From NCBI RefSeq assembly GCF_039696035.1, contig NZ_CP155567.1, positions 3,529,001 to 3,593,000 of the forward strand: DNA of 64,000 bases, written 5' to 3'. Position numbers and translations under genes: made by a program. The stretch is from Microbulbifer sp. SAOS-129_SWC (GTDB taxonomy: Bacteria; Pseudomonadota; Gammaproteobacteria; Pseudomonadales; Cellvibrionaceae). The notes under the pieces were generated by a model. The model did no database searches. It saw nothing but the letters and a program-made list of their open reading frames with translations, and had not been told where the DNA came from. Positions 36,740 through 59,808 of this stretch are shown here, piece by piece. Within the stretch, counting starts at the first letter, position 1; every line of letters starts with the position of its first letter.

Positions 36740-37128
36740 GGGGATGACTTGGATTCGACGCCGGTGACGAAACCATGGGTGCATGCCGTGAGGGTAGCGA
36801 ATCACGTAAATCCAAAGCTGCATTTTATTAGTTGCCAACGACGACAACTACGGTGCCCAACTGGCTGCGTAAGCAGTCCGCGAAGCACTAACTAAGGGTT
36901 CGCCCTTAGCGGCCTTCAGTAAGGTTCCAGTACCGCGCTGCAGGCTGTCATACAGAACTGGATCGTCCTGAAGCGTGCCTGACGTGGATGGCCTAAAACT
37001 TATTCAGGCTCGCTCTTAACGTCCTGCCCGCTGGGCTGTATAGAGTTAAATCAATAGGCGGAACTAAGCATGTAGAGCCTCTGGCAGAGTGCTGACGGAC
37101 GCGGGTTCGACTCCCGCCATCTCCACCA
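36740..37128 (+). ncRNA. ssrA: tmRNA (SsrA)
   Basis: This RNA rescues stalled ribosomes with SmpB. The 5' end GGGGATGACTTGGATTCGAC and the 3' end GGGTTCGACTCCCGCCATCTCC plus encoded CCA form the tRNA-like domain; GGGGATG pairs with CATCTCC as a 7-base acceptor stem. The tag frame (36834-36872) starts at GCC and encodes ANDDNYGAQLAA followed by TAA, in agreement with gammaproteobacterial tags. The 3' end is a common integration site for islands, and a copy of it is found about 9.8 kb downstream. Confidence 0.97.
37096..37121 (+). repeat. attachment-site core in the 3' end of ssrA
   Basis: CGGACGCGGGTTCGACTCCC then GCCATC, the T-arm and acceptor end of tmRNA. It recurs with one change at 46933-46958, so the two behave as the ends of an inserted segment. 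Confidence 0.75.
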
Positions 37129-37132
37129 AATT

Positions 37133-37168
37133 AAAAAGGCCCGTTACCGCAAGGTAACGGGCCTTTTT
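37133..37168 (+). terminator. ssrA terminator
   Basis: AAAAAGGCCCGTTACC / GGTAACGGGCCTTTTT is a 16-base perfect stem with a GCAA tetraloop, right after the tmRNA 3' end. Confidence 0.95.
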
Positions 37169-37699
37169 AATTTGTCGGGCTGTCGCGAGTAGAACGCTTA
37201 GCGAGGGTTCGATCAGCGCGCCCCGCGCGCTAAGACAGCCGCAGGCTGCCCCGCAGGGGTGAGGAGCACAGCGACGAATCACTCCCGCCATGCGGACTCG
37301 CAGCCCCCCCAAATTCCGAACGAAGGGGAACCCCCAATCGAATGAGATGGCGGGAGTTGAATTCAGTGCTCAGGTGTCGATCAACGAGCCCCTAATCTAA
37401 TCGCGCTCGTTTTTACTGAATGCCAGAATCAGCCTGACCCCAAATACGCTGAAGGCTTTTCACGTTTTCGTTCATTACACTGGGAAACACGCCTTCACGG
37501 TGCGTACAGCGGCCAGCCAAATACTTCAAATAGTATCCAACTTGTTGTCGCATTTTACACCACTTGAAAATAACTAAGCACGTTTCCGTGTGCCACACTT
37601 TCTCGCAGAAATTAAGTTACCCGTTTCCCGCCGTCAAAAACAACGTGTTTGGAATTCCGATACTCGCTAACAGAGAGGGGAATATCTCCAGAGGATAGA
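37169..37699. other. scar region A after ssrA
   Basis: There are 531 bases between the ssrA terminator and the cis/trans isomerase gene. From 37175 to 37300 the sequence is related to two later places: CGATCAGCGCGCC...CTAAGACA (37210-37237) recurs in altered form at 50421-50446, and GAGGAGCACAGCGACG...CTCCCGCCATGCGGA (37261-37296) recurs at 59773-59808. These look like decayed ends of earlier insertions. The rest (37380-37699) is A/T-rich and should include the promoter of the next gene. A 61-codon minus-strand frame at 37413-37598 is not convincing. Confidence 0.55.
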
Positions 37700-40009
37700 A
37701 TGACTACTCATAAATCCAGGAATTTTTTCCTATATTTGGCATTGATATCTTTTTCCTTGATCGCGATTGTTACTTCCAGAAATTCCAATGCAGAAGAAAT
37801 TTCATTCACCACTCAAGTAAAGCCAATTCTTGATACAAAATGCGTTTCCTGCCATGCATGCTACGACTCTCCTGCTCAGCTGGATCTTACTAGCACCAAA
37901 GGAATTGCGCGTGGAGCGATAAAGTTCGACCCCTACGTACCTCGACTTAAACCGACCGATTCAACGATCTTGTGGGCCAGCCCAAAATCCACGGAAGAGT
38001 GGCGTAAGATGGGTTTCTTCTCCGTTACCGAAGGCGGCGGAAACTCGATAATGGCAAAAATGCTCAGGCTCGGCCACGACAACCCAGTCGAATCCAATGC
38101 GCGTTTCCCAACGGGGATCGACATCGACTCGCTCACACGGCGGAATGTGATGCCGAACGAAGCGGAAATCGATAACTATGTAAAAGCGCGGCCGCTTGAG
38201 GGGATGCCACTGGCAGTGACAGCGCTTTCCAGTGAGGAATACCGGGTTTTGATGGAATGGCTTAAACAAGGTGCTCCGCTCGAAAATGTCACACCGCAGC
38301 CAACCACTGCAGCAATCGCGAAAATTGCTGAATGGGAGGAATATCTCAACGGCGCAGATAACCGTTCCCAGTTGGTTGCTCGGTACATCTACGAGCACGC
38401 AAATTCATTTAGCGTAAGATTCGACGACAGCGGCACCTTCTACCAGCTAATTCGCTCTACGACCCCCAGTGGTAAGTCGCCTGTTCCAGTCGCGGCGAAA
38501 ATGCCGAACGACCCGGTCGATGGCAAGTTCTACTACCGCCTTCAGCCGATTGTGCGCACCCGCTGCGCAAAGCTGCATCAGCTCCTGCTGGACGCAAGCG
38601 GTGACAAACTCTCCCGATACAAGGCAATCTTCAATGAGACCAGCTGGGACGTGAAAACCTTACCCGGCTACTCTGTCAGCGAGCGCTGGGACCCGCTCAA
38701 CGTGTTTGCATCGATCCCGGCAAAAGCCCGCTGGAAATACCTGCTGGAGGATATCTGGCTACACCGGGCCAGTATCGTCTGGGGACCTTCTTGCCGGGGG
38801 CAACTGACTGTCGGCTCAGTGCGGGACCAAGAATGGGATTTTTTTGAAGATCCGGAAACATCGCTCTATGTAAACGATGCCGAATATCGCGCTGAACTAG
38901 CACCCTATCTCGCGCCGCCGGCGTCACCAGAAGACATCGTATCTTTCCTTAACTGGTTGAGAGAATTCGCCGAGAAACGCCGGGAAGTACTTGATCGTGC
39001 AGCGGCGCGGCTGGCGGAGGGCCACCAAGCTCGCATTACCGATATCTGGGCTGGGGAAAAGCCTGGTGACACGCCGATGATTTCAATTTTTCGCAACGGC
39101 GATAATGCATTCGTTTCTAAGCGCGGCGCGGCAGTCGGTGACTTCCCCAAAACAAGTTGGGTCCTCGACTTGCCACTGCTCGAACTGATGCTTTACAACG
39201 GTGCCGTCGTCAATTTCGATCTGTTCGGCGATGTAGGTTCATGGTTGGCGCTTCGCGAGGGCTTTGGACTTTTGCGCCGCACTGCGGAGTCGAACTTTCT
39301 GCGCTTCCTGCCCGCAGATCAGCGTCAGGAAATTTACGACAGTTGGTACGGCGGCAAGCTCACCGAGCTGCGTCGAGCCCGATTACTCGATTTTGGCCCG
39401 GACACCACGGTGCCGACGGCCATCAAATTCAAGACGGACGACCCCAAAACAGAATTCCAAAAAATGCTGCTCGAACACGTCCGTTTCACGGAGAAAGCTG
39501 ACCCGATCAATCGGTCCGTAACCGGAGATAGCCCAGGACACCTGATTGAGACCCTGCGTTCGATTACCAATGCATCGAAACAGCAGCCCGACTGGCGCAA
39601 ATTCAAGACACTATTGCCGGAAGCGACCCTATTGCTAATTGAAGCGCCAGGCAAAGATCCGCGTGTCTACACGATGTCACTTAACCGTGATTTCCTCACC
39701 AAAGGCGCTGCAACGAGCCTGCTCCAGGAAGAAAATCCGAGCAAAGCCACAGTTACCATCTACCCGGGTATCCAGACCGCATACCCCAATTTTTCCTTCC
39801 GGATTGCGGAATCGGAACTGGACGACTTCGCGAAGGCGCTGATCGCGGCTGAGACAGCAGATGACCTGGAGTCGATTGTAAAACGGTGGGGCGTACGACG
39901 TTCCAGCCCTGTCTTCTGGCACGTCATGCAGAGCTTCACCGACTATGTCCGTCGTATAGATCCCCTTAAGGCCGCCACGTTCGACATCAATCGCTACAAG
40001 AACCTTTGA
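37700..40009 (+). CDS. fatty acid cis/trans isomerase (Cti-like)
   Basis: A periplasmic haem protein that converts cis to trans unsaturated fatty acids in membrane lipids under solvent or heat stress. Its 769 residues begin with a signal peptide (about 1-33), then FTTQVKPILDTKCVSCHACY with the CxxCH haem site and DSPAQLDLTSTKGIARGA, both typical of Pseudomonas Cti. The length also agrees (about 766). The ATG at 37700 has an AGAGG site; the open frame from 37649 has none. The DNA is visibly richer in A/T than the core genes, which supports transfer. It is followed nine bases later by a porin gene. Confidence 0.85.
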   Translation: MTTHKSRNFFLYLALISFSLIAIVTSRNSNAEEISFTTQVKPILDTKCVSCHACYDSPAQLDLTSTKGIARGAIKFDPYVPRLKPTDSTILWASPKSTEEWRKMGFFSVTEGGGNSIMAKMLRLGHDNPVESNARFPTGIDIDSLTRRNVMPNEAEIDNYVKARPLEGMPLAVTALSSEEYRVLMEWLKQGAPLENVTPQPTTAAIAKIAEWEEYLNGADNRSQLVARYIYEHANSFSVRFDDSGTFYQLIRSTTPSGKSPVPVAAKMPNDPVDGKFYYRLQPIVRTRCAKLHQLLLDASGDKLSRYKAIFNETSWDVKTLPGYSVSERWDPLNVFASIPAKARWKYLLEDIWLHRASIVWGPSCRGQLTVGSVRDQEWDFFEDPETSLYVNDAEYRAELAPYLAPPASPEDIVSFLNWLREFAEKRREVLDRAAARLAEGHQARITDIWAGEKPGDTPMISIFRNGDNAFVSKRGAAVGDFPKTSWVLDLPLLELMLYNGAVVNFDLFGDVGSWLALREGFGLLRRTAESNFLRFLPADQRQEIYDSWYGGKLTELRRARLLDFGPDTTVPTAIKFKTDDPKTEFQKMLLEHVRFTEKADPINRSVTGDSPGHLIETLRSITNASKQQPDWRKFKTLLPEATLLLIEAPGKDPRVYTMSLNRDFLTKGAATSLLQEENPSKATVTIYPGIQTAYPNFSFRIAESELDDFAKALIAAETADDLESIVKRWGVRRSSPVFWHVMQSFTDYVRRIDPLKAATFDINRYKNL

Positions 40010-40018
40010 GTCGGGGCG

Positions 40019-41596
40019 ATGGAAATGGGAAGAAGGATGGCGAAAGCAGCTGAAACACTGACCACTCACGTAGTCACTGCCACTCGAACCGCAGCCTGTG
40101 CCGCAGTCTTATGCTGTGCACTTGGCGTAGATCCCAGTCGCGCAGGTGAAAATATCAGCGGTTTCACTTATCTGGATAATCCAACCACGGAGACAACCGC
40201 TGAGACTTTCGGGCCTACGAGTTCTAACTGCCTCTCGATTGCCAACGTCGCCCCTGTCTTGCTGCCGTACGTCAACAACGGACCGGTATTTGGCTTGCCG
40301 GGAACGATCGTCGGTGATATCTCCGAACGCACTCAGCTAACCGGTGACTGGGGTGGGCAGCGCACTGCTCTGGCCGAGAAGGGTGTGTTCATGGATGTCT
40401 ACACAACATTCGCTTACCAAAGCATAACTTCTGGGGGACTCGATGAAGTCGATGCCTCGATCAATAACGTTCAGATCTCAATTAACGTCGATACTGGCCG
40501 CGCCGGGCTGTGGCGTGGCGGTGTACTCCACTTTACCGCGCAGGGACGCACCGGCTCCTCATTTGACGATCAATTTGCCGTGGGCAGCTCCATACCTCAG
40601 TATCTAGATCTCCTGTTACCGGGCGCAAAGCTGGACAACGATATATACCCCTCAGATTTCTACCTTCTACAATCGATCACTCCGAAAACCGGGGTGATCG
40701 TCGGCGTCATCAACGGTCTGTACCTACCAGATCAAACGCTGTTCGGTGACGCGCATCGGTATGCATTCACCAACTTCAGTTTTAACAAGAACCCCCTATT
40801 TGCAAACTTCTTCGGCCCCACCGCAGTGGCAGCTCTCGGCGCTTACGCACCGTCGGAGTCACTTGTATTCACTGGTGGAGTTCTTGATCCCTACACCGTG
40901 GCAAATGATTATTCCGATACGTTCGACGCGGTCAATCTCTACGGCCAAGCAACATTCACTTATAGTGCCGGGGGACGACCCGGGCAAGTCACAGGAGCGG
41001 TAAATTGGACCAATCAAGAAAAGCTAAACTTGGATGACCCGTTTGAGCCATTTACACCGCTGCAAATTGCGGAACTGTTGACTACTACCGATCTATCAAT
41101 AAGCGACCTTGACCTTTCACTCAACAACATCGACTCAAGCTATTTCGCCATAGGAAATTTTTCGCAATACCTGTTGGTAAAGGACGACCCGACCAGTATC
41201 AAAGAAAAACTTAAGAGTGGTCAGCAGCTGCGCGGACTGGGGCTATTTGGCCGCTTCGGGTATGCACCCGAAAAGTCCAATGTTCTGGCAGCACACGCAA
41301 GCCTTGCACTTTATGGACGCGGACTTTCAAACCAGCGACCGATTGACAGCTTCGGTGCTGGCGTTTACTACAACAGAATAAGCCGAGGGCTCACAGATGG
41401 CCTAAGTGATCTAACTCTTGGCGCCATAGATGTGGATGACGAAGTAGGCATTGAGGCATTTTATGACTTCGCGTTAACGCCGGCAGTTCGCTTAATCGCC
41501 AGCTATCAGTGGATTCAGAATCCATTGCTCGCGCAAGTGGTTTCGAATGAGGACCATGCAAATGTCTTCTTTGCACGCATTAGTGTTGCCTGGTAA
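40019..41596 (+). CDS. OprB-family carbohydrate-selective porin
   Basis: An outer-membrane beta-barrel of 525 residues with a probable signal peptide (about 1-42, ending SRAGEN). The OprB start LTGDWGGQRTALAEKGVFMD is present near residue 105, followed by alternating beta segments (GLWRGGVLHFTAQGRTGSSF, LYGQATFTYSAGGRPGQ) and a C-terminal strand ending in Trp (VFFARISVAW), the signal for BAM insertion. It is in an apparent operon with the isomerase gene, an unusual pairing. The first ATG (40019) or a later one (40025/40037) could be the start. Confidence 0.85.
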   Translation: MEMGRRMAKAAETLTTHVVTATRTAACAAVLCCALGVDPSRAGENISGFTYLDNPTTETTAETFGPTSSNCLSIANVAPVLLPYVNNGPVFGLPGTIVGDISERTQLTGDWGGQRTALAEKGVFMDVYTTFAYQSITSGGLDEVDASINNVQISINVDTGRAGLWRGGVLHFTAQGRTGSSFDDQFAVGSSIPQYLDLLLPGAKLDNDIYPSDFYLLQSITPKTGVIVGVINGLYLPDQTLFGDAHRYAFTNFSFNKNPLFANFFGPTAVAALGAYAPSESLVFTGGVLDPYTVANDYSDTFDAVNLYGQATFTYSAGGRPGQVTGAVNWTNQEKLNLDDPFEPFTPLQIAELLTTTDLSISDLDLSLNNIDSSYFAIGNFSQYLLVKDDPTSIKEKLKSGQQLRGLGLFGRFGYAPEKSNVLAAHASLALYGRGLSNQRPIDSFGAGVYYNRISRGLTDGLSDLTLGAIDVDDEVGIEAFYDFALTPAVRLIASYQWIQNPLLAQVVSNEDHANVFFARISVAW

Positions 41597-42054
41597 ATGC
41601 CCACCTACTTGTCGCACGCACAGAAAATGTACAACATTAAAAAGCGCTGCAAATAGTTTTGAAAGGCAATTCGGCAACTAAAAAAAATTGAGAGCCAGGT
41701 ATATTTGGTGCGCTTCGCGATCGCACAGACTTCGACTCCAAATAGCGGAGTTGAATAGGTGGAACCGAGACAAAGGAACACCAATAGGAACACCACCTTA
41801 AGATTGACAACAAATTCCTGTTATTTTTCAATGACTTATAACAACAATCCTGCTCCCGCCATCGTACGATCGGCATGCTACCAAGCTTCATTAAGCATCT
41901 GGGTTAATGGATATTCCTGCCAAAACTTTACTCGGCCCCCAATTATTTAATCCACCAGTACCGCGTGCAATTTCGCAGTGCTGATGGATAGCATCTCGGA
42001 ATTTCTAGATATACAGCCTGGCCGAAACTAAATGGCTGCGGACCGGCTTCACGG
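41597..42054. other. intergenic region between modules 1 and 2
   Basis: 458 bases between converging genes. It contains the boundary sequence D (41728-41794). Otherwise it is A/T-rich with no gene seen. Confidence 0.5.
41728..41794 (+). repeat. boundary repeat D, related to the sequence at 59661-59727
   Basis: A 67-base stretch starting GACTTCGAC and containing TGAATAGGTGGAA and ACACCA...TAGGAACA matches 59661-59727 at about 53 of 67 positions with no gaps. It divides the isomerase/porin module from the sulfatase module. Confidence 0.65.
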
Positions 42055-43794
42055 TTATTCCCCCATGTGGCTCGTGGTCTTTTGCTCCTTCATCTGTTGG
42101 ATGATTTGGTCGAGATTGTAGCTCGCAGGGGCCTGGAGCGGCGGGAACTTCTTGTATGTCTCAAGTTCCTTTAACCACATCAGTTGCCCGATCGGCAACA
42201 GGTTCCAATCGTAGATATAGGCTGTGGAAGGCGCACCCAGCGCGCCGCCAACCGCCAACGCACTCTTGTTATTGAGCACATTCTCCTCGAAAGGATCACG
42301 CCTGATATTGTCCACCTGGGTCCAGTGGTACGTCTGCACACCCATGAAGCCGCCCTCGGCATTATCGGGGGCCATGGCGAAATAGAATTTCCAGTTCTTG
42401 TAACGGACCGCCGAGGGGTGCGAACCGCTGTAGTAAAAGATGTAATCGCGCGCGGAATCTCCCTTACCCTCCAGGTAGGCACGCTGGTCGACACCGTCCA
42501 GTGTCGTCTTGACGATCCCTGGATACTTGCCGGCCTCGATCTGTTGCTTCAATCCGTCGCCAGAGGGACCGCCGGCAATATTGACCAGAGTGGGCACCCA
42601 ATCGAGGGCCGAGAAGATCCCGTTCATCACCCCGCCCGGTTTTATGTGCCCCGGCCAGCGCACTAGCAGCGGCAAACGCATACCACCCTCCCAGGTGGTC
42701 AGCTTACCGCCCCGGAAGGGTGTGACACCGCCATCCGGATAGGTGATGGTTTCGGCGCCATTATCGGTGGTGAAGATGATGATTGTGTTGTCGAGCTGCC
42801 CCATGTCCTCGAGCTTTTTGAAGACGTAGCCGATGTTGTCGTCGAGCTGCTTCATGCCGGCTTCGTTGAGGCCCCAGTCCTTGCCGCCCTTCTCTCCGAG
42901 CATATCCAGGTATTTGTCCGGGAGCATGGTGGTGACGTGCATACGCGCCGGGTTGTAGTAAACAAAGAATGGCTTGCCCGTCTTCTTGGGGTCATTTCGA
43001 TCGAGGAAATCAATCACCTTTGCGGATATTTCCTCATCCACGGTTTTCGACCGCTCTAGTGTCAGCGGCCCCTCGTCTTTGCAGGTCTGGTTCTTCTCCG
43101 TGCCGTCTGAGGAAGTGCACCAGATGACGGGGCGCGGAGGCGTCATACACAGCCCGTCCTTGGGGTCGATGGCACCCGGCGGGTCCGAAAGGCCCTTGAC
43201 TGGGGTGTTTTTGCAGGCCGGCACGACGGCCTGGTCGGTCGGCGTCTTGTTGATATCCGGAAAGCTCACGCCCTGCATGGCGTCCAAATGGTACAGATAG
43301 CCCCAGAACTCCTGAAAGCCGTGCGCAGTGGGCAATGAGGAGGTCTTGTCGCCGAGGTGGTTCTTACCAAACTGGCCCGTGTTGTAGCCAAGATCTTTAA
43401 GAAACTTGCCGATGGATGGTGTGCCGGGCAACAGGGAGCTGGTCGCACCAGGAAGCTGAGGCAGGAGCATTCCCGCGCGCAAAGGATTCATGCCGGTGAC
43501 GAACGCTGTGCGCCCGGAAGTGCAGCTCTGCTGTCCGTAATAGTCCGTGAACAGCACACCCTCTTTTGCGATGCGGTCGATGTTGGGCGTCTCACCCACC
43601 ATCAGCCCGCGGTGGTAGGCACCAACGTTAAAGATCCCGACATCATCCGGCATGATGAACAGAATGTTGGGCTTCTTGCCATCCGGCTCCGCTGCAGCAG
43701 CCGGCACGCTGTTAGCGACTATTGCCAACGCGCCAAGGCTGAAGACAAGCGCCGCTCTGCACAGACTGGCTAGCAGTTTCGATTTCCTTATCAT
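42055..43794 (-). CDS. secreted sulfatase (arylsulfatase family)
   Basis: A periplasmic or exported sulfatase of 579 residues. The signal peptide spans about 1-35 (PAAAAEP), then NILFIMPDDVG gives the metal-binding Asp pair. The active-site motif is QQSCTSGRTAFVTG with Cys91 as the residue converted to formylglycine; Ser at the third position of C-x-(P/A)-x-R is less usual. Later blocks include TPFRGGKLTTWEGGMRLPLL and VRWPGHIKPGG, normal for arylsulfatases. The neighbour is an alkylsulfatase, which suggests shared use of organic sulfate esters. No formylglycine-generating enzyme is encoded in the window. Confidence 0.88.
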   Translation of the reverse strand: MIRKSKLLASLCRAALVFSLGALAIVANSVPAAAAEPDGKKPNILFIMPDDVGIFNVGAYHRGLMVGETPNIDRIAKEGVLFTDYYGQQSCTSGRTAFVTGMNPLRAGMLLPQLPGATSSLLPGTPSIGKFLKDLGYNTGQFGKNHLGDKTSSLPTAHGFQEFWGYLYHLDAMQGVSFPDINKTPTDQAVVPACKNTPVKGLSDPPGAIDPKDGLCMTPPRPVIWCTSSDGTEKNQTCKDEGPLTLERSKTVDEEISAKVIDFLDRNDPKKTGKPFFVYYNPARMHVTTMLPDKYLDMLGEKGGKDWGLNEAGMKQLDDNIGYVFKKLEDMGQLDNTIIIFTTDNGAETITYPDGGVTPFRGGKLTTWEGGMRLPLLVRWPGHIKPGGVMNGIFSALDWVPTLVNIAGGPSGDGLKQQIEAGKYPGIVKTTLDGVDQRAYLEGKGDSARDYIFYYSGSHPSAVRYKNWKFYFAMAPDNAEGGFMGVQTYHWTQVDNIRRDPFEENVLNNKSALAVGGALGAPSTAYIYDWNLLPIGQLMWLKELETYKKFPPLQAPASYNLDQIIQQMKEQKTTSHMGE

Positions 43795-43994
43795 TTCCGG
43801 TTCCCCTCCACTTATGGGGTACTTGCGTTTCAGGACGGCAATCCCTCACTGAGCTGCCTGTACTCTTACGTGTATGCGTTCCAGAATCCGCGGCACTTCG
43901 GCGTGCAGGGGCACTTCGTGCTTAGGAGTACGCGCATGTTCATCGCACGCGAACGTCGGTCATCGGCGCACGCGGGCGCTGACTCTGCTGTTTC

Positions 43995-45980
43995 CTATTT
44001 CGTCCCCATCGGCAGCACCACTTGATACCAGGGATCAAACGTATCCAGCAGAGAGACGAACTCTTCAAACTTCTTGGCGTCACCATCGAGTTTGATCGAG
44101 CCCTTGGTAACCCCTTGTTCCACCTTCAGCTTGCCGCCAATGATCTCATTCAAAGTATCCCGGCTCATGGTGATACTGGCATCGGCGTCCTTCGCCTGCT
44201 GATCCTTGTGGTACTGCAGAACGCCGTACTGCACCACCAGCAGGTACTTGTCCTTGGTGTCTGGCAATTCCAGATTCATCTTGATGGTCTTGCCTTCCGC
44301 CTTGGGACCGTTGAGACGAATCGACAGGTAGTCGAAGAACAGTTCCAGCGGCATGGCAGCGACCGTGTCCGGGCTGGCGAATACCGCGATCGGCATGGGT
44401 TTGACGCCTTCGCGCAAGTCCTTGGCCGCACTCATGTACCAGCCACGCCAGGTGCCCGCCTCAGCCTGGTAACCGAGCTGCTCACTGGCATCCGCCATAA
44501 GATTGCGCTCTTTCATGTTACCGGGATCGGCATAGACCACCTGCATCAACACCTGCATCACCCAGCGGTAATCGCCCTTGTCATAGTCTGCCTGGGCCTT
44601 CTTGATAATGGCGTCGGCGCCGCCCATGTAGTCGACGTATTTCTTGGCGGCCTCGACCCGCGGCAGTGGATGCAGGGTAGCGGGGTTGCCGTTAAACCAG
44701 CCAAAGTGCTTGTCGACGGCGGCCTTGACGTTGTGATTGGTAGTGCCGTAGTAACCGCGCAGCCCCCATTCGGATTGCAGTTCCTTGGGCAGCTGGAGCA
44801 TTTCGGCGGCCTCGACCATATCGTAGCCAGCGTTTGCCAGACGCACCGACTGGTCGTTGATGTACTTGTAGGCGGCGGACTGCCTGACCAGATGCTCGCT
44901 GATACGCTCTTTGCCCCAAATAGGCCAGTGGTGCGGTGCGTACAGGACTTCTGCCTCTCTTCCCCAGCGCTCATTTGCCAATTTCAGGTACTTGGCCCAG
45001 TTGTAGGCACTGCGCACCTTGGCCCCGCGCAGGCTGTACACGTTGTGCTGGGTGTGCACCGCGTCCTCAGCGGTGGACAGCGCCTTGTACTTGGGGATGT
45101 AGAAAAACATCTCCGCCGGCGCCTCGGTGTCCGGAGCCAGCATGAACTCGAAATCCAGACCGGCGATGGTCTCCTTCTGGACCGGTTCCGTGATCACGTT
45201 GGTCGGCACGGCGAAGGTGATGGTTCCCCTGGAGTTAATCAGGCCCAAGCCGCTTGTCACGCTCCCGGTGGGGCCTGGCTCTACCAGCTGGCTGTATTGG
45301 TAGCCGCTGAGACGGGTCTGGCGGTTGCCGCCTATCACGTTTTCGTTGAGTGCCGCCTCCGTGAAACCAGTCGGCGCGTAAATCTTGACCTTGCCGGAGT
45401 CGATATCCTCCTGGCTCACCACCCCCTTAACGCCGCCATAGTGATCAATGTGAGAATGGGAGTGGATTACCGCTACGACGGGCTTGTCGCCGCGATGTTT
45501 GCGGTAGAGATCCAGCCCCGCCTTGGCGGTCTCGGCAGAAACCAACGGATCCATGACGATCACGCCGTTGGGGGCCTCGATGAAGGTAATGTTGGAGATG
45601 TCCAGACCGCGAACCTGGTAGATGTGGTCGGTCACTTTAAACAGGCCGGTGTAGTGCTCCATGACCTGAGCCTGTCGCCACAGGCTGGGGTTGACCGTGT
45701 CCGGCGCCGGCTTGTCACCACGAAGAAAATCGAACTTGGGCAAATCCCAGACGATGTCGCCCTTGGCGTTCTTGACCACACCGTTGTTTTCCAGCGGGGC
45801 GATGAACCCTTTCTTGGAATCCTCGAAGGCCTGCTTGTTGTTAAACGGCAGCTCCTTGAGCACCGCCGCGTTGGCCGCCTTGGTGGCCGCGGTGGCTGGT
45901 TTTGCGGTGTCGGCCCCCATGACAGACTGAGCGACACCGATGGCCAATAAAAACGATAGCGCTGTGCGCGTCAGTTTCAT
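43995..45980 (-). CDS. SdsA-type alkyl sulfatase (metallo-beta-lactamase fold)
   Basis: A secreted zinc hydrolase that cleaves primary alkyl sulfates such as SDS. The 661-residue protein has a signal peptide (about 1-22) and a metallo-beta-lactamase domain with HSHSHIDHYGG (residues 173-183), AEDAVHTQHNVYSLRGAKVR and a further ligand region APHHWPIWG. These are followed by the alkylsulfatase dimerisation domain (HFGWFNGNPATLHPLPR) and a C-terminal SCP2-like domain (from about 540) for the alkyl chain. Order and length match Pseudomonas SdsA1. It lies 200 bases from the arylsulfatase on the same strand. Confidence 0.92.
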   Translation of the reverse strand: MKLTRTALSFLLAIGVAQSVMGADTAKPATAATKAANAAVLKELPFNNKQAFEDSKKGFIAPLENNGVVKNAKGDIVWDLPKFDFLRGDKPAPDTVNPSLWRQAQVMEHYTGLFKVTDHIYQVRGLDISNITFIEAPNGVIVMDPLVSAETAKAGLDLYRKHRGDKPVVAVIHSHSHIDHYGGVKGVVSQEDIDSGKVKIYAPTGFTEAALNENVIGGNRQTRLSGYQYSQLVEPGPTGSVTSGLGLINSRGTITFAVPTNVITEPVQKETIAGLDFEFMLAPDTEAPAEMFFYIPKYKALSTAEDAVHTQHNVYSLRGAKVRSAYNWAKYLKLANERWGREAEVLYAPHHWPIWGKERISEHLVRQSAAYKYINDQSVRLANAGYDMVEAAEMLQLPKELQSEWGLRGYYGTTNHNVKAAVDKHFGWFNGNPATLHPLPRVEAAKKYVDYMGGADAIIKKAQADYDKGDYRWVMQVLMQVVYADPGNMKERNLMADASEQLGYQAEAGTWRGWYMSAAKDLREGVKPMPIAVFASPDTVAAMPLELFFDYLSIRLNGPKAEGKTIKMNLELPDTKDKYLLVVQYGVLQYHKDQQAKDADASITMSRDTLNEIIGGKLKVEQGVTKGSIKLDGDAKKFEEFVSLLDTFDPWYQVVLPMGTK

Positions 45981-46591: not shown

Positions 46592-46869
46592 AAAGCCAGT
46601 AAAGCACGGTCACCCCGAAACGTGGCTGATGGGTGCTGACTGAAATGCCAAAAAATTATAGCTGGCTAGGGGCTAGCAAGCAGGAGGGGTCCCGACTCTT
46701 CTCCCCGGTGGGCGTCATCGGAACCTTGCACCTGCGCCTTTAAAACGTCGGACATGCCCAATTTTCAGGTTCATTATTGGCGTAGATTTTCGCCGGCATT
46801 TCCAATTGCGAGTGCAAGTTCAGGAAGTGGGTGGCGCAGGTCAAAAAGTAATGGGCAGGCAGCATTTTT

Positions 46870-46958
46870 TGTAACACCAGTTGTAACACTAGCACGGGAG
46901 ACCCGCACCAAACGCCCGAATTATAACGGCTGCGGACGCGGGTTCAACTCCCGCCATC
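46870..46958 (+). repeat. attachment-like scar B, copy of the ssrA 3' end
   Basis: TGTAACACCAG (46870-46880), shared with scar C, is followed by CGGACGCGGGTTCAACTCCC and GCCATC (46933-46958), identical to the ssrA 3' end at 25 of 26 bases. There is no tmRNA around it, so it is best read as the far end of a segment inserted at ssrA. The TGA of the LysR gene lies at its right edge. Confidence 0.75.
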
Positions 46959-47871
46959 ACGCAAACTCGTCCCGCTGCTCCACCAGAAAATCAATCAAAG
47001 CCCGTATCTTGGCGGGCATCTGCGCCCTTGAAGGCACATACAAAAAGAACCCCGGAAAAGGCCTGCACCAGCTTTGCAACACCCTCACCAACGAGCCTTC
47101 GGCGAGATACGGCCTTACGCAAAGATCCAGGTGCTGCACGACCCCCACGCCATGGAGAGCAGCGCGCAGCATACTTTCGTCATCATTGAACACCCCGTTT
47201 CCCTTCGGTTCGAAAATCAGGGTGCGCTTTTCAGCATCCGGCGACGTGAAGGACCAGCGGTCGATGAGACCACTGGAGGTAAAACGAAAGGCAAGGCAGT
47301 TATGTTGCAGTAAGTCATCGGGTGTTTCCGGAGTGCCGTGTTTAGCGAAATATTCCGGAGAGCCGACGATCGCCATCGACATCGGCGGTGATACCGGTAC
47401 AGCCACCATTTGCTCCTCGAGACTCTCACCCAGACGAATTCCGACGTCCATGCCACTGGAAATGATATTGGAAAGGCCATCATTCATTACCAGTTCCAAC
47501 GTTATTTTGGGGAAGCGCGCCAGAAACTCCTCCATCTTTGGCTCCAGCAATAACCTGGCAGCCACTCGCGATGTATTGATGCGTATTACCCCGGACGGTT
47601 CAGCTTGCGATTCCCCCACCTCTGAGACCGCCTGGTCAATTGACTCAATGGCTGGTGAAAGTACATCAAACAGCCGCTGCCCCTCCTCTGTTAGCGACAT
47701 GCTGCGCGTACTCCGATTCAGTAACCGCACATTCAGCTGCTGCTCCAGTGATTTCAGGTGCTGCGAAAGCGCCGCACGGGAAACACCCATTTCAGCCGCA
47801 GCCTTGGTAAAGCTGCGGTGATGAGCGATATGGGCGAACCATGCCAGGGAAGGAAGGAGCGACGGGTCCAT
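46957..47871 (-). CDS. LysR-family transcriptional regulator
   Basis: A 304-residue regulator with an N-terminal winged helix-turn-helix (about 1-60: FTKAAAEMGVSRAALSQHLK, SLEQQLNVRLLNRSTRSMSL) and a periplasmic-binding-like effector domain. The ATG at 47871 (MDPSLLP) is chosen; a TTG at 47877 is possible. It is divergent from the hydrolase gene 169 bases away and probably controls it. The stop codon lies in the att-like scar B, so the final residues (DEFA) may have been set by the junction; the overall length is still normal. Confidence 0.9.
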   Translation of the reverse strand: MDPSLLPSLAWFAHIAHHRSFTKAAAEMGVSRAALSQHLKSLEQQLNVRLLNRSTRSMSLTEEGQRLFDVLSPAIESIDQAVSEVGESQAEPSGVIRINTSRVAARLLLEPKMEEFLARFPKITLELVMNDGLSNIISSGMDVGIRLGESLEEQMVAVPVSPPMSMAIVGSPEYFAKHGTPETPDDLLQHNCLAFRFTSSGLIDRWSFTSPDAEKRTLIFEPKGNGVFNDDESMLRAALHGVGVVQHLDLCVRPYLAEGSLVRVLQSWCRPFPGFFLYVPSRAQMPAKIRALIDFLVEQRDEFA

Positions 47872-48039
47872 CAGCAATCCAATTGTAAAGTTTTGCTTAC
47901 CACTATGTTCAAGATTAGCACCTTTTTCAATGCCAATTGGATGCCTATTATTCGTTCACCAACTGCGAGTCGCCGGTTGGGGCCCACGTCAGTTGGGCAA
48001 TGCGTCAGCGACCACCCCAAACCGTAATTGGAGAAGACT

Positions 48040-48957
48040 ATGCAAACGGTCATGATCAAGAACCAGTACTGGGACATCGCAGCCAACATCTACTTTCCCC
48101 CCGGCTTTGATGACCAGAAGCAATACCCGGCCATTATCAGCGCTCACCCCATCGGGAGCTGCAAGGACCAGACAGCGGGCAACGTTTATGGCGAAGCCCT
48201 CCCGAAGGAAGGTTTTGTCGTCGTTGCTTTCGACCGCAGCACACAAGGGCAGAGCGGCGGTGAGCCCCGCTATATAGAAGACCCGGCGTTGGCCGTAGAA
48301 GACTTCAGCCGCGTAACCGACTATTTGGTGACTCTGCCGTACGTGGATGCCGACCGCATCGGGGTGCTGGGGATCTGCGGCGCCGGCGGCTATGCCATCA
48401 ATGCGACCATGATCGAGCGCCGCATCAAGGCCCTTGTCAGCATTACTGGTGTCAATTACGGCCGCCTGTGCCGTGAAGGCTTCAGTGGTTTCGACCCCAT
48501 CGGCCAGATGGAAGCGGTGGCTGCGCAACGCACCGCCGAGGCCAAGGGGGAAGCACTCAAGGTCGACCTGTTCGTACCCCCTTCCCTGGAAGCGGCAGCC
48601 GAAGCGGGTATTACCGACGTCGACGTGCTTGGTGCCACCGACTACTACCGTAATCGCTGTGTCAACGACAATGCCGGCACGCGCGCATTGTTCTCCCGTC
48701 GCGCCGCCTCCGCTGCCTGGGATGCCTTCCATCTGGCCGAGACCCTGCTGACAGCGCCGATGATGGTGGTGGTCGGCGACATACCTGGTGGCTTTGGTGC
48801 CTATCGCGATGGCCTGGAGATTTACGCGCGCGCTGCGTCGAAGATCAAGGAACTGGTGGTCGTCGAGGGTTACTCCCACTACGACCTGTATGACCAGCCG
48901 GAGCCAGTGTCTCAGGCTCTGGCCAAGTTAATCCCTTTTTATAAGGAAAACCTGTAA
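48040..48957 (+). CDS. alpha/beta hydrolase with Cys nucleophile (YcjY/dienelactone-hydrolase-like)
   Basis: A 305-residue cytoplasmic hydrolase. The nucleophile elbow is GVLGICGAGGYA with Cys (about residue 113) in place of Ser, as in dienelactone hydrolases and YcjY-type proteins. An acid region and a C-terminal catalytic His (VEGYSHYDLYDQ) follow. The oxyanion segment is AHPIGSCKDQTAG. No signal peptide is seen. The ATG at 48040 has a GGAG site; a TTG at 48028 would add four residues. It is followed by an Old Yellow Enzyme gene on the same strand and divergent from a LysR gene, a common regulator-plus-detoxification layout. The substrate is unknown. Confidence 0.85.
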   Translation: MQTVMIKNQYWDIAANIYFPPGFDDQKQYPAIISAHPIGSCKDQTAGNVYGEALPKEGFVVVAFDRSTQGQSGGEPRYIEDPALAVEDFSRVTDYLVTLPYVDADRIGVLGICGAGGYAINATMIERRIKALVSITGVNYGRLCREGFSGFDPIGQMEAVAAQRTAEAKGEALKVDLFVPPSLEAAAEAGITDVDVLGATDYYRNRCVNDNAGTRALFSRRAASAAWDAFHLAETLLTAPMMVVVGDIPGGFGAYRDGLEIYARAASKIKELVVVEGYSHYDLYDQPEPVSQALAKLIPFYKENL

Positions 48958-50223: not shown

Positions 50224-50651
50224 CCAGAATCCTGACGAATTGGGTGGCGGAGAGTTGTCTGTTCCGGGCGTTACGGAAGTAAAAGTAGGCAGCATGGATT
50301 ATGCACAACCTGAAGCAGACACGGGTGCCCTCCTCTGATGGGGAAAGGCGCCTTTTATGTAACACCAGCCAGGGAATCCCTCCCGAAGCGCCCGTCTTGT
50401 AAGGCCTCGGGACGCGAGTCCGATCAGTGCGCAGCCCGCTAAGACAAAAGTAGGCTATCCGGTACAGCGTAGGTCACCAGAGCGGCTGTCAGGGACGAAG
50501 CCGGTATCTGCGATCAAGGTGGCTGGCATCACCTTGGCGTGGCCGGCTACTGTGATACCCCACGCCAGACACCACCACTGCCGTGCTCCCCGCGGCCAGC
50601 CCGCCGGCTACCGCACGCGGAGCTATTGCAAGTAGAAACGGAAAAATCAAA
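50224..50651. other. intergenic region with scar C
   Basis: 428 bases between modules 3 and 4. TGTAACACCAG (50358-50368) repeats that of scar B; after it GGGACGCGAGTCCGATCAG (50410-50428) resembles a decayed ssrA end, and CGATCAGTGCG...CTAAGACA (50421-50446) repeats scar A. No gene is seen. Confidence 0.55.
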
Positions 50652-50987: not shown

Positions 50988-51034
50988 ATCTTTGTCCCTG
51001 GGGTTTTATAGCAATTGCACCGTGGTGATTTTCA

Positions 51035-51589: not shown

Positions 51590-51632
51590 GTTTACCTCTG
51601 TTTATTTATTTGAGTTCAGTCGAAGGGCTTTT

Positions 51633-52328: not shown

Positions 52329-52402
52329 TGCAATTACCTCCGGTTTATTGTTCGTAGACTTCTCGTCACTGGCCACCGGCGCTGCCGCTGGCCTATTTAT
52401 TT

Positions 52403-55567
<3,165 letters not shown>

Positions 55568-56806
55568 TTAGTGATCGTGGGACGCGCCGGATTTTTCGAT
55601 GTCGGCCTTGATGATGTAGCTGTTCCCGGTGACATACTCCGTACCCGGCTTCAATCCCCCGAGTACCTCGACCCAGTCGCCCGCCTCGCGGCCCAGCTCC
55701 AGCATGCGCACCTCGTATTCATCCCCAACCTTGGCGTAGACCACGGTGAAATCCCGGAACGGCTGCAAACCGGAACGCTTGACCGCCAGCGGCACCTCGT
55801 ATTCGGCAACCTGGATATCCCCGGATACAAAGGCCCCGGGCGCGAGATCTACCGGGGGATTCTTCAGGGCTACACGCACTACACTGGATTGGTTGCGACG
55901 GATCATGGTGTCGACCTGCCGCACCGCGCCTTGTAACTCGGTATCGATTCCGCGTATCCGCAGTGCAACCGGTGCCCCCTGCTTGATACGGGCTCGCGTG
56001 GCCGGGAATACCTCCAGCTCGGCGAGTAGCGCATTGCTATCCGCGATTGTCAGCAAGGTGCGGCCCTCGGTCTGCTCACCGGGGTTGGCCTGGCGCTGCA
56101 ACACCACCCCATCGATCGGGGAGACAATGGTGTAGGTCTTGAGGTTTTCATTGCTGTTGACCGCGATCAGCGGCTGCCCCTTAGCAACCCGCTGCCCCAG
56201 ACCGACCTTGACCGCTTCCACGGTGCCGTTAAAGCGCGCGCTGATCAGCCGGACCCGCTCGGGGTTCATCACCAGGCGGCCGAATGCGCTGCTGGTCTCC
56301 CGCATCACTGCGGGCCCGGCAATACCGGTGCCGATATCCATCGCTTCCGCAATACTCGGTTCAATCCGGGTGCGGCCTTCAAAGTTGTCGTACTGCCAGC
56401 GGTGGCTCTTGCCCTTGTATCTGGCCGTGAGCGTGACAACGAACGAGTGCGGCTCGTAAATTACCGTGTCCCCGCGCAGAAAATCGCTCTGCGGGGCAAA
56501 ACCGATCTGGTCCTCCACCCCTCCGAGCCTGGTGAGCACTACTTTGAGTTCAACCTGACCCGGGTCCACCGGCTTGCCGCCGTCGGTAATCCACACGCGG
56601 AATTCCGGCGGCACCCCGGTTTCGAAAATACTGAGTTCAACCGCGAAATCGTCCTCGCGCAGCATGCGGCCGCGGTGCGGGCCCTTCTCCGGTTCCGGTT
56701 CACCCTGTTCGGCAGCCGCACCGGAAGCCTGGAGGTTTGCGCTATAAGTCAGGCCCCACGACAGCATCGCGGCGAAGACCAGACTGGAAAAAATCACAGA
56801 TTTCAT
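55568..56806 (-). CDS. RND efflux periplasmic adaptor (CzcB-like)
   Basis: Membrane-fusion protein of 412 residues that joins the RND pump to the outer-membrane channel. It has a signal peptide (about 1-30), then the CzcB-like GPHRGRMLREDDFAVELSIF segment and an extra N-terminal beta domain. A lipoyl domain (VEAVKVGLGQRVAKGQPLIA, SPIDGVVLQRQANPGEQTEG) and beta-barrel follow, and the C-terminus is VTGNSYIIKADIEKSGASHDH, with a His/Asp end. It overlaps the TolC-type gene by four bases and ends nine bases before the pump gene. Confidence 0.9.
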   Translation of the reverse strand: MKSVIFSSLVFAAMLSWGLTYSANLQASGAAAEQGEPEPEKGPHRGRMLREDDFAVELSIFETGVPPEFRVWITDGGKPVDPGQVELKVVLTRLGGVEDQIGFAPQSDFLRGDTVIYEPHSFVVTLTARYKGKSHRWQYDNFEGRTRIEPSIAEAMDIGTGIAGPAVMRETSSAFGRLVMNPERVRLISARFNGTVEAVKVGLGQRVAKGQPLIAVNSNENLKTYTIVSPIDGVVLQRQANPGEQTEGRTLLTIADSNALLAELEVFPATRARIKQGAPVALRIRGIDTELQGAVRQVDTMIRRNQSSVVRVALKNPPVDLAPGAFVSGDIQVAEYEVPLAVKRSGLQPFRDFTVVYAKVGDEYEVRMLELGREAGDWVEVLGGLKPGTEYVTGNSYIIKADIEKSGASHDH

Positions 56807-58122
56807 TTTTCGTTCTCGCTTATCTGTGCCAGGGACAGGCCGGTGAGTTTTTCGATTTCAATCAGGTTCAGGCGCGCGCGATACCGGGCCTGAAGGAGCG
56901 ACAAGCGCGCATCAATCAGTGCCTGCTGCGCCGACGCCAGCTCGTAATAACGGTATTTGCCCTGCCGATAGGCGCTGCGGGTATCCGCAAGCGATCGCTC
57001 CAGGCTCGGAATAATCTTTGCCGTCAGTGCATCGCCAACGTGACGGCTGTGCAGCAGCTGCTGGGCCATCACATATACCCGTGTTTCCAGTTCTATCGCC
57101 TTGGCATGCATTTCCGCGCGGTAGCGGTTCTGTTCCGCCTTCAGCGCTGCGACCTGGCCGCGATTGCGATCGCGCCGCCCGAGCGGGACCGCCACGCCGG
57201 CAACCAGGCTGTAGTCATTGGCAGCTTCCAGTCGCCGGATACCGGCGTCGATGCGCCACTGGATGCCGGCTTCCGCGCGCGCCAGTGCGATCTCCGCGTC
57301 GGCCACCCGCTCGCGGCTCAGAAAGATGGCGAGATTCGGGTTAGCGGCAACCCGCTGGCGCAACTGCGCAATATCTAGCGGTGGAACCGGCGCGGAAAGG
57401 GAACCCGCGACGGCGCCGAACCGCGGCGTCCGCTCGCCCCATTGCGCCGCCAAGCGGTACCTGGCGATTTGCAGTTGGTGTGCAATGTCTTCCACCGCCA
57501 GGGTGCGCCGCGCCACTTCGGCTTGTGCGCGTGATGCATCGGCTTGCGGGACTTTTCCCGCGGCGACCTGACGACGAATATCCACCAGCACTGCCCGTGA
57601 CTGGGCCAGCGCGTGCTGCGCCAGCACCTGGCGCTCCTGCTGTGCCATGGCCTGGAGAAAATAGCGCGCAGTATCCGCCGCGACGTCCAATTCCAGAATC
57701 TGCCGTTGCGTCTCGATCACCGAGGTTTTGCTGCGGGCCGCGTCAACGCGCCGGTCGATCAATTCGCCCTGTAACAGCCAGGTGATCCCCAGCGTTGTCT
57801 GCGCGCTTTCCGCCGCCGTAAAGTCTCCGCTGCCGGCCACATCCTCGACCATCAGACTCAACTCCGGACGCGGGCCAACCCCGGCCTGCGCAGCCAACGC
57901 ATCGGCCGCTTCGAGCTGGTATTCATATCCGGCCAGTGCCGGGTGACTCTGCAGCGACTGCAGAACAGCCTGCTCGAATGAGAGCCGCGACGACGCCAGA
58001 TTCTCCTGCGCCCACGCGGTGCCGAGTAGGCTCCAGAGAGCCAGGAGTGCCCCCGCGCGCACGGCAAAAAACCGACCTGCGATCGGTTTTTTATCGACAC
58101 GTTTCCGTAAGTTGTCTCGCAC
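56803..58122 (-). CDS. TolC-family outer-membrane channel (CzcC-like)
   Basis: Outer-membrane factor of 439 residues with a signal peptide (about 20-39, ending GTAWAQ) and two repeats of the OEP fold, each with long helices (SFEQAVLQSLQSHPALAGYE, and the second from DIAQLRQRVAANPNLAIFLS). RARLNLIEIEKLTGLSLA near the end is a standard OEP feature. It is the first structural gene of the CzcCBA set, starting 10 bases downstream of the M56 peptidase gene, all in one transcript. Confidence 0.9.
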   Translation of the reverse strand: MRDNLRKRVDKKPIAGRFFAVRAGALLALWSLLGTAWAQENLASSRLSFEQAVLQSLQSHPALAGYEYQLEAADALAAQAGVGPRPELSLMVEDVAGSGDFTAAESAQTTLGITWLLQGELIDRRVDAARSKTSVIETQRQILELDVAADTARYFLQAMAQQERQVLAQHALAQSRAVLVDIRRQVAAGKVPQADASRAQAEVARRTLAVEDIAHQLQIARYRLAAQWGERTPRFGAVAGSLSAPVPPLDIAQLRQRVAANPNLAIFLSRERVADAEIALARAEAGIQWRIDAGIRRLEAANDYSLVAGVAVPLGRRDRNRGQVAALKAEQNRYRAEMHAKAIELETRVYVMAQQLLHSRHVGDALTAKIIPSLERSLADTRSAYRQGKYRYYELASAQQALIDARLSLLQARYRARLNLIEIEKLTGLSLAQISENEK

Positions 58123-58131
58123 TTTGCTTCC

Positions 58132-59106
58132 TTAATGAGAGAACAGGGTTTCGATGAAGTGGTGGAGTGCATCCACCGAAACGAGGCAGCTGCCTGTCAG
58201 CAGAAGAAAAGGAATGCCGATCAGAAGTCGCGGGAGTGAGCGCCCTTTATCGTCGGCGAGCAGGTAGTGCACGCGCGCATCGAGTTGGTCCAAGGCAAAA
58301 TGGCAGCAAATCGGAGAACCGGTATTGCCCGCGTACATACCATTGGAGAGCCGTGTCACCTTGAGCAGGGTCTGGGCGATGAAAGTGTCGCTCCACCCCT
58401 GGCGATACACTTGTTCATCGGCGCACTGCTCCATGCACAACATCATCTGCCGGTTGAGATAGTTGCGCGAACCCTGCGGAAAAAAGCCGGCGAACAATGC
58501 AAACAGTAATTTTTTGAGCGGATCGTAGCGCCGGGCATGCGCCTCTTCGTGCAGACGGACTACCGCGAACTCCTCCGATGAAATGCCATCGCGCAAGCCA
58601 CTGGTATAGAAGCCGCGCGGCCGGAGCAACCCGCTGGTAAATGCCTGCGCCCGCGGTGAGCGGATAATCGATACGTCGCCCGCTTCGCGCTCACAGACTT
58701 GCAGCAATAACCGGAGCTGTGAAACATGCCGGTAGGCACGTCGGCAGCTGCGCACCAGCAACAGCGCACTCAGCGACAGGAACCCCAGCGTGGATATACC
58801 GTGCCAGCTGTAGAGATTGAAAGCGTGAATGTGATGCCAGTGTGCCAGGCTGGCCGCGGGCCCCCCGAGGGCCTCCGGGAACACCAGTATCACTGCGGCA
58901 GCGCTCGCCGCCAGCCAGGGCAGCAGCACGGCGCTCCACAGCAACGGGCGTCGCGCATTCGCGGAAAGACGCACAGAACTGCGGAAAAATTTTGCAGAAT
59001 GGGAAATTGCCGCGCAAATCCCGGCCACCAGCAGAATTCCAACCAGCAGGCAGAGGGCCGCAATGGTCAACAGGTTCAACCAGAGTGCCGGTTGCCCCAG
59101 TATCAT
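58132..59106 (-). CDS. M56-family membrane metallopeptidase (BlaR1-like, no sensor domain)
   Basis: A 324-residue membrane protein with hydrophobic helices at about 10-35, 55-75, 95-115 and 285-310. The zinc-protease motif HEEAH lies in FAVVRLHEEAHARRYDPLKK, followed by CMEQCADEQVYRQG with the third ligand. BlaR1/MecR1 proteins have an added penicillin-binding sensor of about 250 residues; this protein ends after the last helix. It probably cleaves or inactivates the adjacent BlaI-type repressor after an unknown signal. It overlaps that gene by four bases and stands at the head of a metal-efflux operon. Confidence 0.85.
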   Translation of the reverse strand: MILGQPALWLNLLTIAALCLLVGILLVAGICAAISHSAKFFRSSVRLSANARRPLLWSAVLLPWLAASAAAVILVFPEALGGPAASLAHWHHIHAFNLYSWHGISTLGFLSLSALLLVRSCRRAYRHVSQLRLLLQVCEREAGDVSIIRSPRAQAFTSGLLRPRGFYTSGLRDGISSEEFAVVRLHEEAHARRYDPLKKLLFALFAGFFPQGSRNYLNRQMMLCMEQCADEQVYRQGWSDTFIAQTLLKVTRLSNGMYAGNTGSPICCHFALDQLDARVHYLLADDKGRSLPRLLIGIPFLLLTGSCLVSVDALHHFIETLFSH

Positions 59107-59489
59107 GCGTCGCCACCCTGCTGGCGTTTCGCCTTCTGCGCCTCGATCAATTGCTCGAGCTGTGCCAGCTGGGACTCGCTCAAGTCCGAGGAAATTGAGG
59201 TAAAGGCCGCAACGAGGCCGTTATCGTCATCGACGAACTCCCGAGTCACGTCCTGGATAAGCTGACCGACAAAAGCATATCGCTCTACCGCCGGGCGGTA
59301 TTGGAACGCGTGCCCCTGCTTCTCCCGCGTCAACAGGCCTTTCTTGAACAGGCGATCGAGCGTGCTCTGGATGGTGTTGAGCGAGCCGCCGCGGGCCTTG
59401 CTGAGCTGCGCATGCACCTGCTTGGCATCCGCGGAGTCCGCGTTCCAGAGGTACTGGAGAACCTGTTTTTCGAGATCACCTAGCCGCAT
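59103..59489 (-). CDS. BlaI/MecI/CopY-family repressor
   Basis: A winged-helix repressor of 128 residues, the family length, beginning MRLGDLEKQVLQYLWNADSA. The recognition region is VHAQLSKARGGSLNTIQSTLDR and the wing GLLTREKQGHAFQYRPAVER; a C-terminal helical dimer domain follows (LSESQLAQLEQLIEAQKAKR). Relatives control beta-lactamase or copper genes and are removed by an M56 protease. Here the pair heads czc-type genes. The ATG at 59489 is favoured over the frame start at 59531 since the extra 14 residues precede the conserved start. Confidence 0.87.
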   Translation of the reverse strand: MRLGDLEKQVLQYLWNADSADAKQVHAQLSKARGGSLNTIQSTLDRLFKKGLLTREKQGHAFQYRPAVERYAFVGQLIQDVTREFVDDDNGLVAAFTSISSDLSESQLAQLEQLIEAQKAKRQQGGDA

Positions 59490-59529
59490 GCCGCTTAGCT
59501 CACCTGTTAGAATGGTCAGTCTGGCAGGC

Positions 59530-59559
59530 ATACTAAACGCCCCAAAAACCGATCGTCAA
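59530..59559 (-). promoter_or_regulatory. putative promoter of the BlaI-M56-czc operon
   Basis: TTGACG (59559-59554), an 18-base spacer and TAGTAT (59535-59530) on the minus strand, about 40 bases before the BlaI-type start. No clear TACA-N2-TGTA operator was found by eye. Confidence 0.5.
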
Positions 59560-59660
59560 TAGGTTTTTCTGGCGGGTAATAACAAGCTGGCAGCGGACTG
59601 GCGTTCAGGCCCGGGAAATACTGATGACCGAGCAGTTCAGGCGTGCCCCGAGATCACACT

Positions 59661-59808
59661 GACTTCGACGCCAAAATGCGGATGTGAATAGGTGGAATTA
59701 CATCAAAGGGACACCAGTAGGAACAACGGCGAACCCGACCGATGCACGCATGCGTATTGAGATCGCGGCGCGGAAGAGCACAGCGACGAGGCGCTCCCGC
59801 CCTGCGGA
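59661..59808 (+). repeat. boundary scar E
   Basis: 59661-59727 matches boundary D (41728-41794) at about 53 of 67 bases, and 59773-59808 matches 37261-37296 beside ssrA at 31 of 36. It marks the right end of the accessory region; apparent core genes follow. Confidence 0.65.

Follow-up and report, generated by a model that had tools for sequence, protein, structure and literature searches.

A probable accretion array of integrase-made islands behind ssrA in Microbulbifer sp. SAOS-129_SWC

The zone 3′ of ssrA, the transfer-messenger RNA (tmRNA) gene, was analysed in Microbulbifer sp. SAOS-129_SWC within a window of 64,000 nucleotides (bases 3529001–3593000 of a single 4.63 Mb contig), and it is very probably an accretion array of integrase-made islands. 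Elements whose tyrosine integrases recognise the 3′ end of ssrA, or copies of the core a short way past it, would have inserted here repeatedly and in one orientation, each insertion leaving integrase-specific arm repeats followed by the core at its distal end. Every module would have come on such an element, which may later have lost its left end and its integrase; we infer that this loss took place in the present genome. Homologous recombination has probably reshuffled parts of the zone since then, and the array is most likely immobile in the present genome, because no cognate integrase was found.

The comparison covered 48 Microbulbifer genomes, that is, the own genome (G000) and 47 others, and ssrA was present in all of them. 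The own SmpB protein is 97% identical to that of M. hainanensis (G014) and 96% to that of M. donghaiensis; M. elongatus (G011), M. litoralis (G018), M. aggregans (G005), and Microbulbifer sp. HZ11 (G027) are also referred to below. Stretches 3′ of ssrA were compared over approximately 19 kb for most of the 47 others, over 39 kb for G012, G013, G022, G032, and G037, and over a shorter length, owing to contig ends, for G014, G016, G019, G020, G023, and G034, so that absence from a stretch does not mean absence from the genome. Arm pairs were searched for in 101 kb of the own genome and in 929 kb of the other 47.

Junctions with copies of the ssrA 3′ end

The sequences on which the reading is based are the following (window positions):

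36740..37128, + strand: ssrA (tmRNA; ARAGORN, Rfam RF00023), its 3′ end being the ancestral attachment core
37129..37174, + strand: ssrA terminator
about 37175..37291, + strand: postTerm repeat after the ssrA terminator, with a second core at 37282–37291, the target of module 1
41707..41863, + strand: junction J1, type A arm, AACACCA pair at 41777–41795, core CTCCCGCCATC at 41853–41863
46851..46958, + strand: junction J2, arms of type B (c100 integrase) with their pair at 46873–46891, 26-nt copy of the ssrA 3′ end at 46933–46958
50338..50429, + strand: junction J3, with a decayed type B arm and, after it, the left half of the core fused to the right half of postTerm
59640..59816, + strand: junction J4, type A arm at 59640–59725, then a decayed postTerm and degenerate core at 59764–59816
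64253–64344, beyond the window end: outer junction J5, decayed core and terminator

J1–J4 are all oriented alike, with arm-type repeats to the left of an ssrA-derived core or a core-bearing remnant. The copy of the ssrA 3′ end at 46.93 kb, from which an earlier note on this DNA had started, is real and identical at 25 of 26 positions, and the J1 core is an exact 11-mer match to the ssrA end. The anatomy of J1 and J2 is identical, two AACACYA repeats 12 bp apart being followed by about 57 bp and then the core CTCCCGCCATC; at J3 a single arm repeat is left, and the pair at J4 is degenerate. The related boundaries that the earlier note had listed at 37.2, 41.75, 50.4, and 59.7 kb also proved to be genuine repeat matches, beyond those of shuffled sequence, the cores at the latter two being badly degenerate. 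The boundaries at 41.7 and 59.6 kb share 86 nt at 77% identity (BLAST, 77 nt at 79%, E = 6e-13), those at 37.25 and 59.76 kb 53 nt at 79% (BLAST, 44 nt at 84%, E = 4e-7), and those at 46.85 and 50.34 kb 28 nt at 79%.

In 36740–62000 the 10-mer CTCCCGCCAT is present in five copies (both strands, that of ssrA included), vs. 0.105 on average and at most 2 in 200 dinucleotide shuffles, and the paired AACACYA motif in two copies vs. none in the same shuffles; both patterns were picked after the repeats had been seen. The arm pair occurs at 41777 and 46873 only in the 101 kb of own sequence, while the 929 kb of the other genomes contain six copies, four at type B junctions (G004, G011, G032, and G033) and two elsewhere (G009 and G023). 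Family matches confirmed that the boundaries separate functional gene sets, as claimed before. The number of modules had been given as four; the four junctions J1–J4 are real, and the further decayed core and terminator at 64253–64344 raise the number to at least five.

PostTerm is a hairpin-rich repeat of about 120 bp, found in one to three copies in other species. Long matches ending in …CTCCCGCCAT lie within the ssrA zone of 21 of the 48 genomes, at times in tandem; matches over 50 bp were also seen on contig C41 of M. hainanensis, which carries zone genes, and, with 52 bp, far from ssrA in G033. Inspected by eye, postTerm looks like the core interrupted by an insert of about 80 bp. In several relatives, islands have a terminator resembling that of ssrA after their distal core, and terminator–postTerm units are duplicated around modules in relatives.

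Repeated insertion at the same tmRNA site, the explanation offered by the earlier note, is supported, with the correction that the target of module 1 is not ssrA itself but the core-bearing repeat about 150 bp past it, and the entry of this module left ssrA and its terminator untouched. The target is uninterrupted in G022, where the joined flanks score 375 vs. 285 uninterrupted over about 245 bp. This test covered module 1 in seven genomes, and the gain was clear in G022 alone, small in G025 and G014, and nil in G005, G023, G046, and G004. A different insert, about 1 kb long and bearing a core like that of the c2 integrase family described below, comes after the module 1 site in G006.

Integrases and arm repeats in relatives

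An integrase lies directly after ssrA in 17 of the 48 genomes. Two families, c100 and c2, were found in this position, and the representative of each combines Arm-DNA-bind_3 with Phage_integrase. Strains with an integrase beside such boundary sequences, predicted in the earlier note, do exist. A close c100 (at least 78% identity) occurs in two of the 48 genomes, G033 and G027, in both directly after ssrA, and the right ends of these islands carry type B arms as at 46.9 and 50.4 kb. An intact c2 follows ssrA directly in 15 further genomes, 14 by open reading frame (ORF) call plus G042, in which the frame is open. No other near-full-length c100 match at E ≤ 1e-10 exceeded 33% identity, and at the same threshold the own genome gave no c100 relative. 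Repeats of the TGTAACAC type flank the c100 islands on either side, those at the left being weak in the type B profile (E = 0.01–0.02). In the c2 islands, the ends shown, 13 right and five left, bear repeats of the GACGGGTT type, G011 and G019 having a GTGGGGTT variant. A different recombinase-like ORF follows ssrA directly in G013. Outside the genus, c100 relatives of 48–49% identity lie 3′ of ssrA in Stutzerimonas azotifigens, a Pseudomonas, and a Cellvibrionales metagenome-assembled genome; inspection by eye showed no AACACYA pair in the stretch from ssrA to the c100 relatives in other genera.

The type B profile, trained on five other species (G033, G011, G004, G005, and G032), matched J2 (E = 1e-23), J3 (E = 2e-14), and the right attachment site (attR) of G027, a genome outside the training set (E = 4e-6). 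The c2 profile was trained on six islands and recovered all nine held-out ones at E ≤ 0.006, five of them at E ≤ 2e-13 and the weaker ones at 2e-7 (G038), 3e-6 (G019), 6e-4 (G011, core end only), and 0.006 (G028). It also revealed orphan sites without an adjacent integrase, for example, in G023, G032, G022, and on contig C41 of G014, and gave no c2-type site in the own genome at E ≤ 0.01. On the basis of the profile results, J2 and J3 are read as scars of the c100 family. The arms of J1 and J4 are of a third type, type A.

In agreement with the earlier note, no integrase was detected in the zone by PF00589 or by tblastn with c2 and c100; all five PF00589 matches of the own genome lie elsewhere, and the sensitivity of this search was incomplete, since no match of XerC/XerD strength was listed for this genome, though many relatives show them (masked or missed). 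The arm patterns were also met in viral contigs, type B in one and type A in seven, with no ssrA-linked integrase near the matches at E ≤ 1e-5; judged by eye, the type A matches look like coding coincidence.

Homology breaks, transfer, and decay

Of the four junctions, J1 and J2 show a break in homology between genomes at the core edge. The homology of M. elongatus to module 2 stops at 46958, the last core base, and homology to module 3 starts at 46957–46962 in G018, G014, G004, G032, and G044 and at 46943, within the core, in G005 and G022. On the right side of J1, the homology of G006 and G022 starts at 41853, the first core base, and a short match of G005 begins 38 bp further right. Strains that lack single modules and have clean junctions, another prediction of the earlier note, were accordingly seen at these two junctions, the module 1 site of G022 among them, and not at the other two.

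The genes of modules 2 and 3 have other neighbours elsewhere, and the right end of module 3 adjoins different genes among species. In M. hainanensis, the junction after module 3 consists of a type B arm and the core left half joined to the postTerm right half, after which another gene follows. The sulfatase gene of module 2 is 91.6% identical to that of M. elongatus at the DNA level vs. 77.6–83.7% for recN, smpB, two symporter genes, and the RNase R gene. For the hydrolase gene of module 3 the values are 97.8% in M. hainanensis (comparison genes 85.4–92.5%), 97.4% in M. litoralis (82.3–89.4%), and 97.4% in G032, where the RNase R gene at 82.1% was the sole comparison. In the same three genomes the gene of the old yellow enzyme (OYE) family oxidoreductase reaches 90.2–92.7% and the LysR gene 83.1–85.0%. 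Traces of decay were found as well: M. elongatus has lost most of the alkyl sulfatase of module 2 and keeps a 46-residue piece, which is 100% identical, and fragments of c2 stand directly after ssrA in five genomes (G018, G029, G030, G031, and G040), with two in-frame stops in the copy of G040 and a 47-residue fragment preceding the LysR–hydrolase cluster in G018. A homologue of the alkyl sulfatase, 56% identical, lies within the integrase-bearing island of G033.

Such sharing could also arise if modules without an integrase moved alone, recombined in trans by the integrases of other ssrA elements, the zone being a cassette-like array with one right-end site per module. We regard this as rather unlikely. 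It would account for the right arms being the only ones at the four junctions, for parts of modules 2 and 3 standing at 90–98% DNA identity between species, for the changing neighbours at the right end of module 3, for the duplicated terminator–postTerm units around modules in relatives, and for the lack of a close c100 in all holders seen (G000, G011, G014, G018, and G032). Homologous recombination can explain the sharing as well, the circular or excised forms of modules are hypothetical, and known integrases of this class as a rule depend on arms to either side. A genus-wide form of the same idea, in which modules moved in trans and the duplicated core-bearing repeats served as landing sites that spare the tmRNA gene, is unlikely too. 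In integron cassette arrays, each module is likewise followed by one recombination site in direct orientation. Here, the sites resemble phage-integrase arms and the ssrA core, and no integrase was found at the locus; attC structure was not searched for.

A second possibility is growth of the zone through homologous recombination plus ordinary insertions, at an intergenic site that tolerates them; the att-like sequences would then be old repeats marking nothing more than recombination points. The mosaic nature of module 3, the tandem repetition of postTerm units, and several homology ends falling inside modules would fit this course of events, which we nevertheless hold to be improbable. Against it stand the homology breaks at the core edges of J1 and J2, the constant spacing between integrase-specific arms and core, the single orientation, and the integrase-bearing islands at the same site in relatives.

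Several observations weigh against stacked insertions by integrases, the reading that we prefer. Left arms were found at none of the four junctions and no further arm pair in the 101 kb of own sequence, so the insertion of intact elements is not seen directly, and the best tblastn match of c2 or c100 in the zone had E = 0.035, none being a convincing integrase remnant. The edges of module 4 are given by J3 and J4 alone, that is, by the two degenerate cores; the only homologue of this module found (G037) spans 52470–57992 and reaches neither edge, and the GC content of module 4 is near the flank values. The shared left edge of module 2, at 42048, is not at a core, and the mosaic of module 3 (LysR 83–85%, hydrolase 97%) indicates that ordinary recombination also acts here. 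In the joined-flank test, three of the seven genomes scored higher with the flanks joined and four did not, the result being clear in one. Type A arms occur in the own genome alone and in none of the 47 others, and the J2 arm by itself has genome-wide matches at E ≤ 0.001 in just three of the 48. Finally, the training sequences of the type B profile were picked by their likeness to J2 or J3, so the profile is not wholly independent, and it gives a further match, one that leaves out the core part, in G013 at +29.4 kb (E = 3.5e-7).

Cargo, outer edge, and known systems

The genes between the junctions are listed below.

37649..40009, + strand: module 1, fatty acid cis/trans isomerase (CTI), PF06934
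40019..41596, + strand: module 1, OprB-like porin, PF04966
42055..43794, − strand: module 2, sulfatase, PF00884
43995..45980, − strand: module 2, alkyl sulfatase, PF14863/PF14864
46016..46591, − strand: module 2, ORF of unknown function without a Pfam or PHROGs match
46957..47877, − strand: module 3, LysR regulator, PF03466/PF00126, its stop codon abutting the J2 core
48028..48957, + strand: module 3, alpha/beta hydrolase-like protein, PF02129
49015..50223, + strand: module 3, OYE family oxidoreductase, PF00724
50652..50987, − strand: module 4, DUF6488 protein, PF20098
51035..51589, − strand: module 4, ORF of unknown function, no family match
52403..55558, − strand: module 4, CusA/CzcA heavy-metal RND transporter, TIGR00914, above cut-off
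55568..56806, − strand: module 4, CusB-like membrane fusion protein, PF16576
56803..58122, − strand: module 4, outer membrane efflux protein, PF02321
58132..59106, − strand: module 4, BlaR1-like M56 peptidase, PF05569, weak, below the curated cut-off
59103..59531, − strand: module 4, CopY/BlaI-type repressor, PF03965; TIGR02698 below cut-off
59863..60597, − strand: module 5, DTW-domain protein, PF03942
60673..60990, − strand: module 5, SMR transporter, PF00893; best NCBIfam match SugE, below its cut-off
61958..64231, + strand (window ends at 64000): module 5, accessory second RNase R of 757 residues, TIGR02063 above cut-off

The GC content of modules 1–5 is 51.7, 57.1, 56.1, 60.7, and 55.9%, respectively, vs. 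62.8 and 61.6% in the flanks. Five zone proteins gave no match to phage families below E = 0.045. In module 4, the CopY/BlaI-type repressor and the weak BlaR1-like peptidase match (58132–59531) precede the metal-efflux genes, and in module 5 a guanidine-II riboswitch (61014–61064, minus strand) lies upstream of the SMR transporter gene.

RNase R is an enzyme working with tmRNA. The rnr gene near ssrA is an accessory second copy and probably cargo; relatives of its product (at least 68% identity) occur in 26 of the 48 genomes, 20 of which have the gene at most about 36 kb past ssrA on the same contig, and all 48 have another RNase R of 49–52% identity away from ssrA. The idea that rnr forms the native right edge was dropped for this reason. 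The accessory gene is followed by a decayed unit in eight genomes, including the own one, with core and terminator in six and the terminator alone in G022 and G032; since the unit is thus old, the repeat at 64.25 kb was also rejected as a fresh attR. The gene order common to several genomes (c5, c6 onward) begins at about 67.8 kb. The second RNase R downstream of ssrA in 20 of 48 genomes indicates that part of the zone is old, as would be expected of a fixed gene cluster inherited vertically, with repeats that arose by chance. We give this virtually no credence: the CTI of module 1 is found in only one of the 48 genomes, gene orders differ elsewhere, and the repeats lie far beyond the shuffles. 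The same modules in the same order in distant relatives, which the earlier note would have taken as a sign of vertical descent, were not encountered.

Tandem ssrA islands, about half of them without integration genes, are already known from Dehalococcoides. According to McMurdie 2011 (PMC3146451), several islands follow ssrA there in tandem, with direct repeats of the ssrA 3′ end as their boundaries; 15 of the 31 islands have no integration module, and these may be fixed or cis-mobilizable. The Microbulbifer zone resembles them in its tandem islands after ssrA, in which no integration genes were found. It differs in that Dehalococcoides has the serine recombinase DsiB and a 20-bp repeat (PMC3146451), while Microbulbifer has tyrosine integrases with arm-type sites and partly degenerate cores; the use of a second core downstream of ssrA as target is also a Microbulbifer feature compared with that account. 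No DsiB-type module was found at the Microbulbifer site, where the integrases of relatives are Arm-DNA-bind_3/Phage_integrase proteins and the zone ORFs scanned gave no Pfam recombinase match.

Elements that lack integration genes, keep their att sites, and are stacked at one gene have been described as cis-mobilizable elements (CIMEs), and a model of decay with subsequent accretion has been published (PMC5704250). Like CIMEs, the main zone ORFs include no integration or transfer genes; CIMEs keep both attL and attR, in contrast to the right arms and core only of the Microbulbifer zone, where no conjugative element was seen. Islander-type islands (PMC4383910) are tyrosine-integrase islands in tRNA or tmRNA genes with the displaced gene fragment at the far end. 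The copy of the target 3′ end at the distal boundary and the unoccupied site for module 1 agree with this type, whereas no integrase was found in the Microbulbifer relics. In PMC12388028, which deals with Microbulbifer, ssrA, tmRNA, and integrase are not among the main-text words.

The zone is a well-resolved case of same-site islands piling up and decaying. Because arm repeats indicate the integrase family behind a scar after the integrase itself is gone, relic modules become assignable. With two integrase families having their own arm types and with many species, the genus is a ready system for asking if integrase-free modules still move, and the case of rnr illustrates that an apparent core-neighbourhood gene can prove to be an accessory copy within a zone of this kind.

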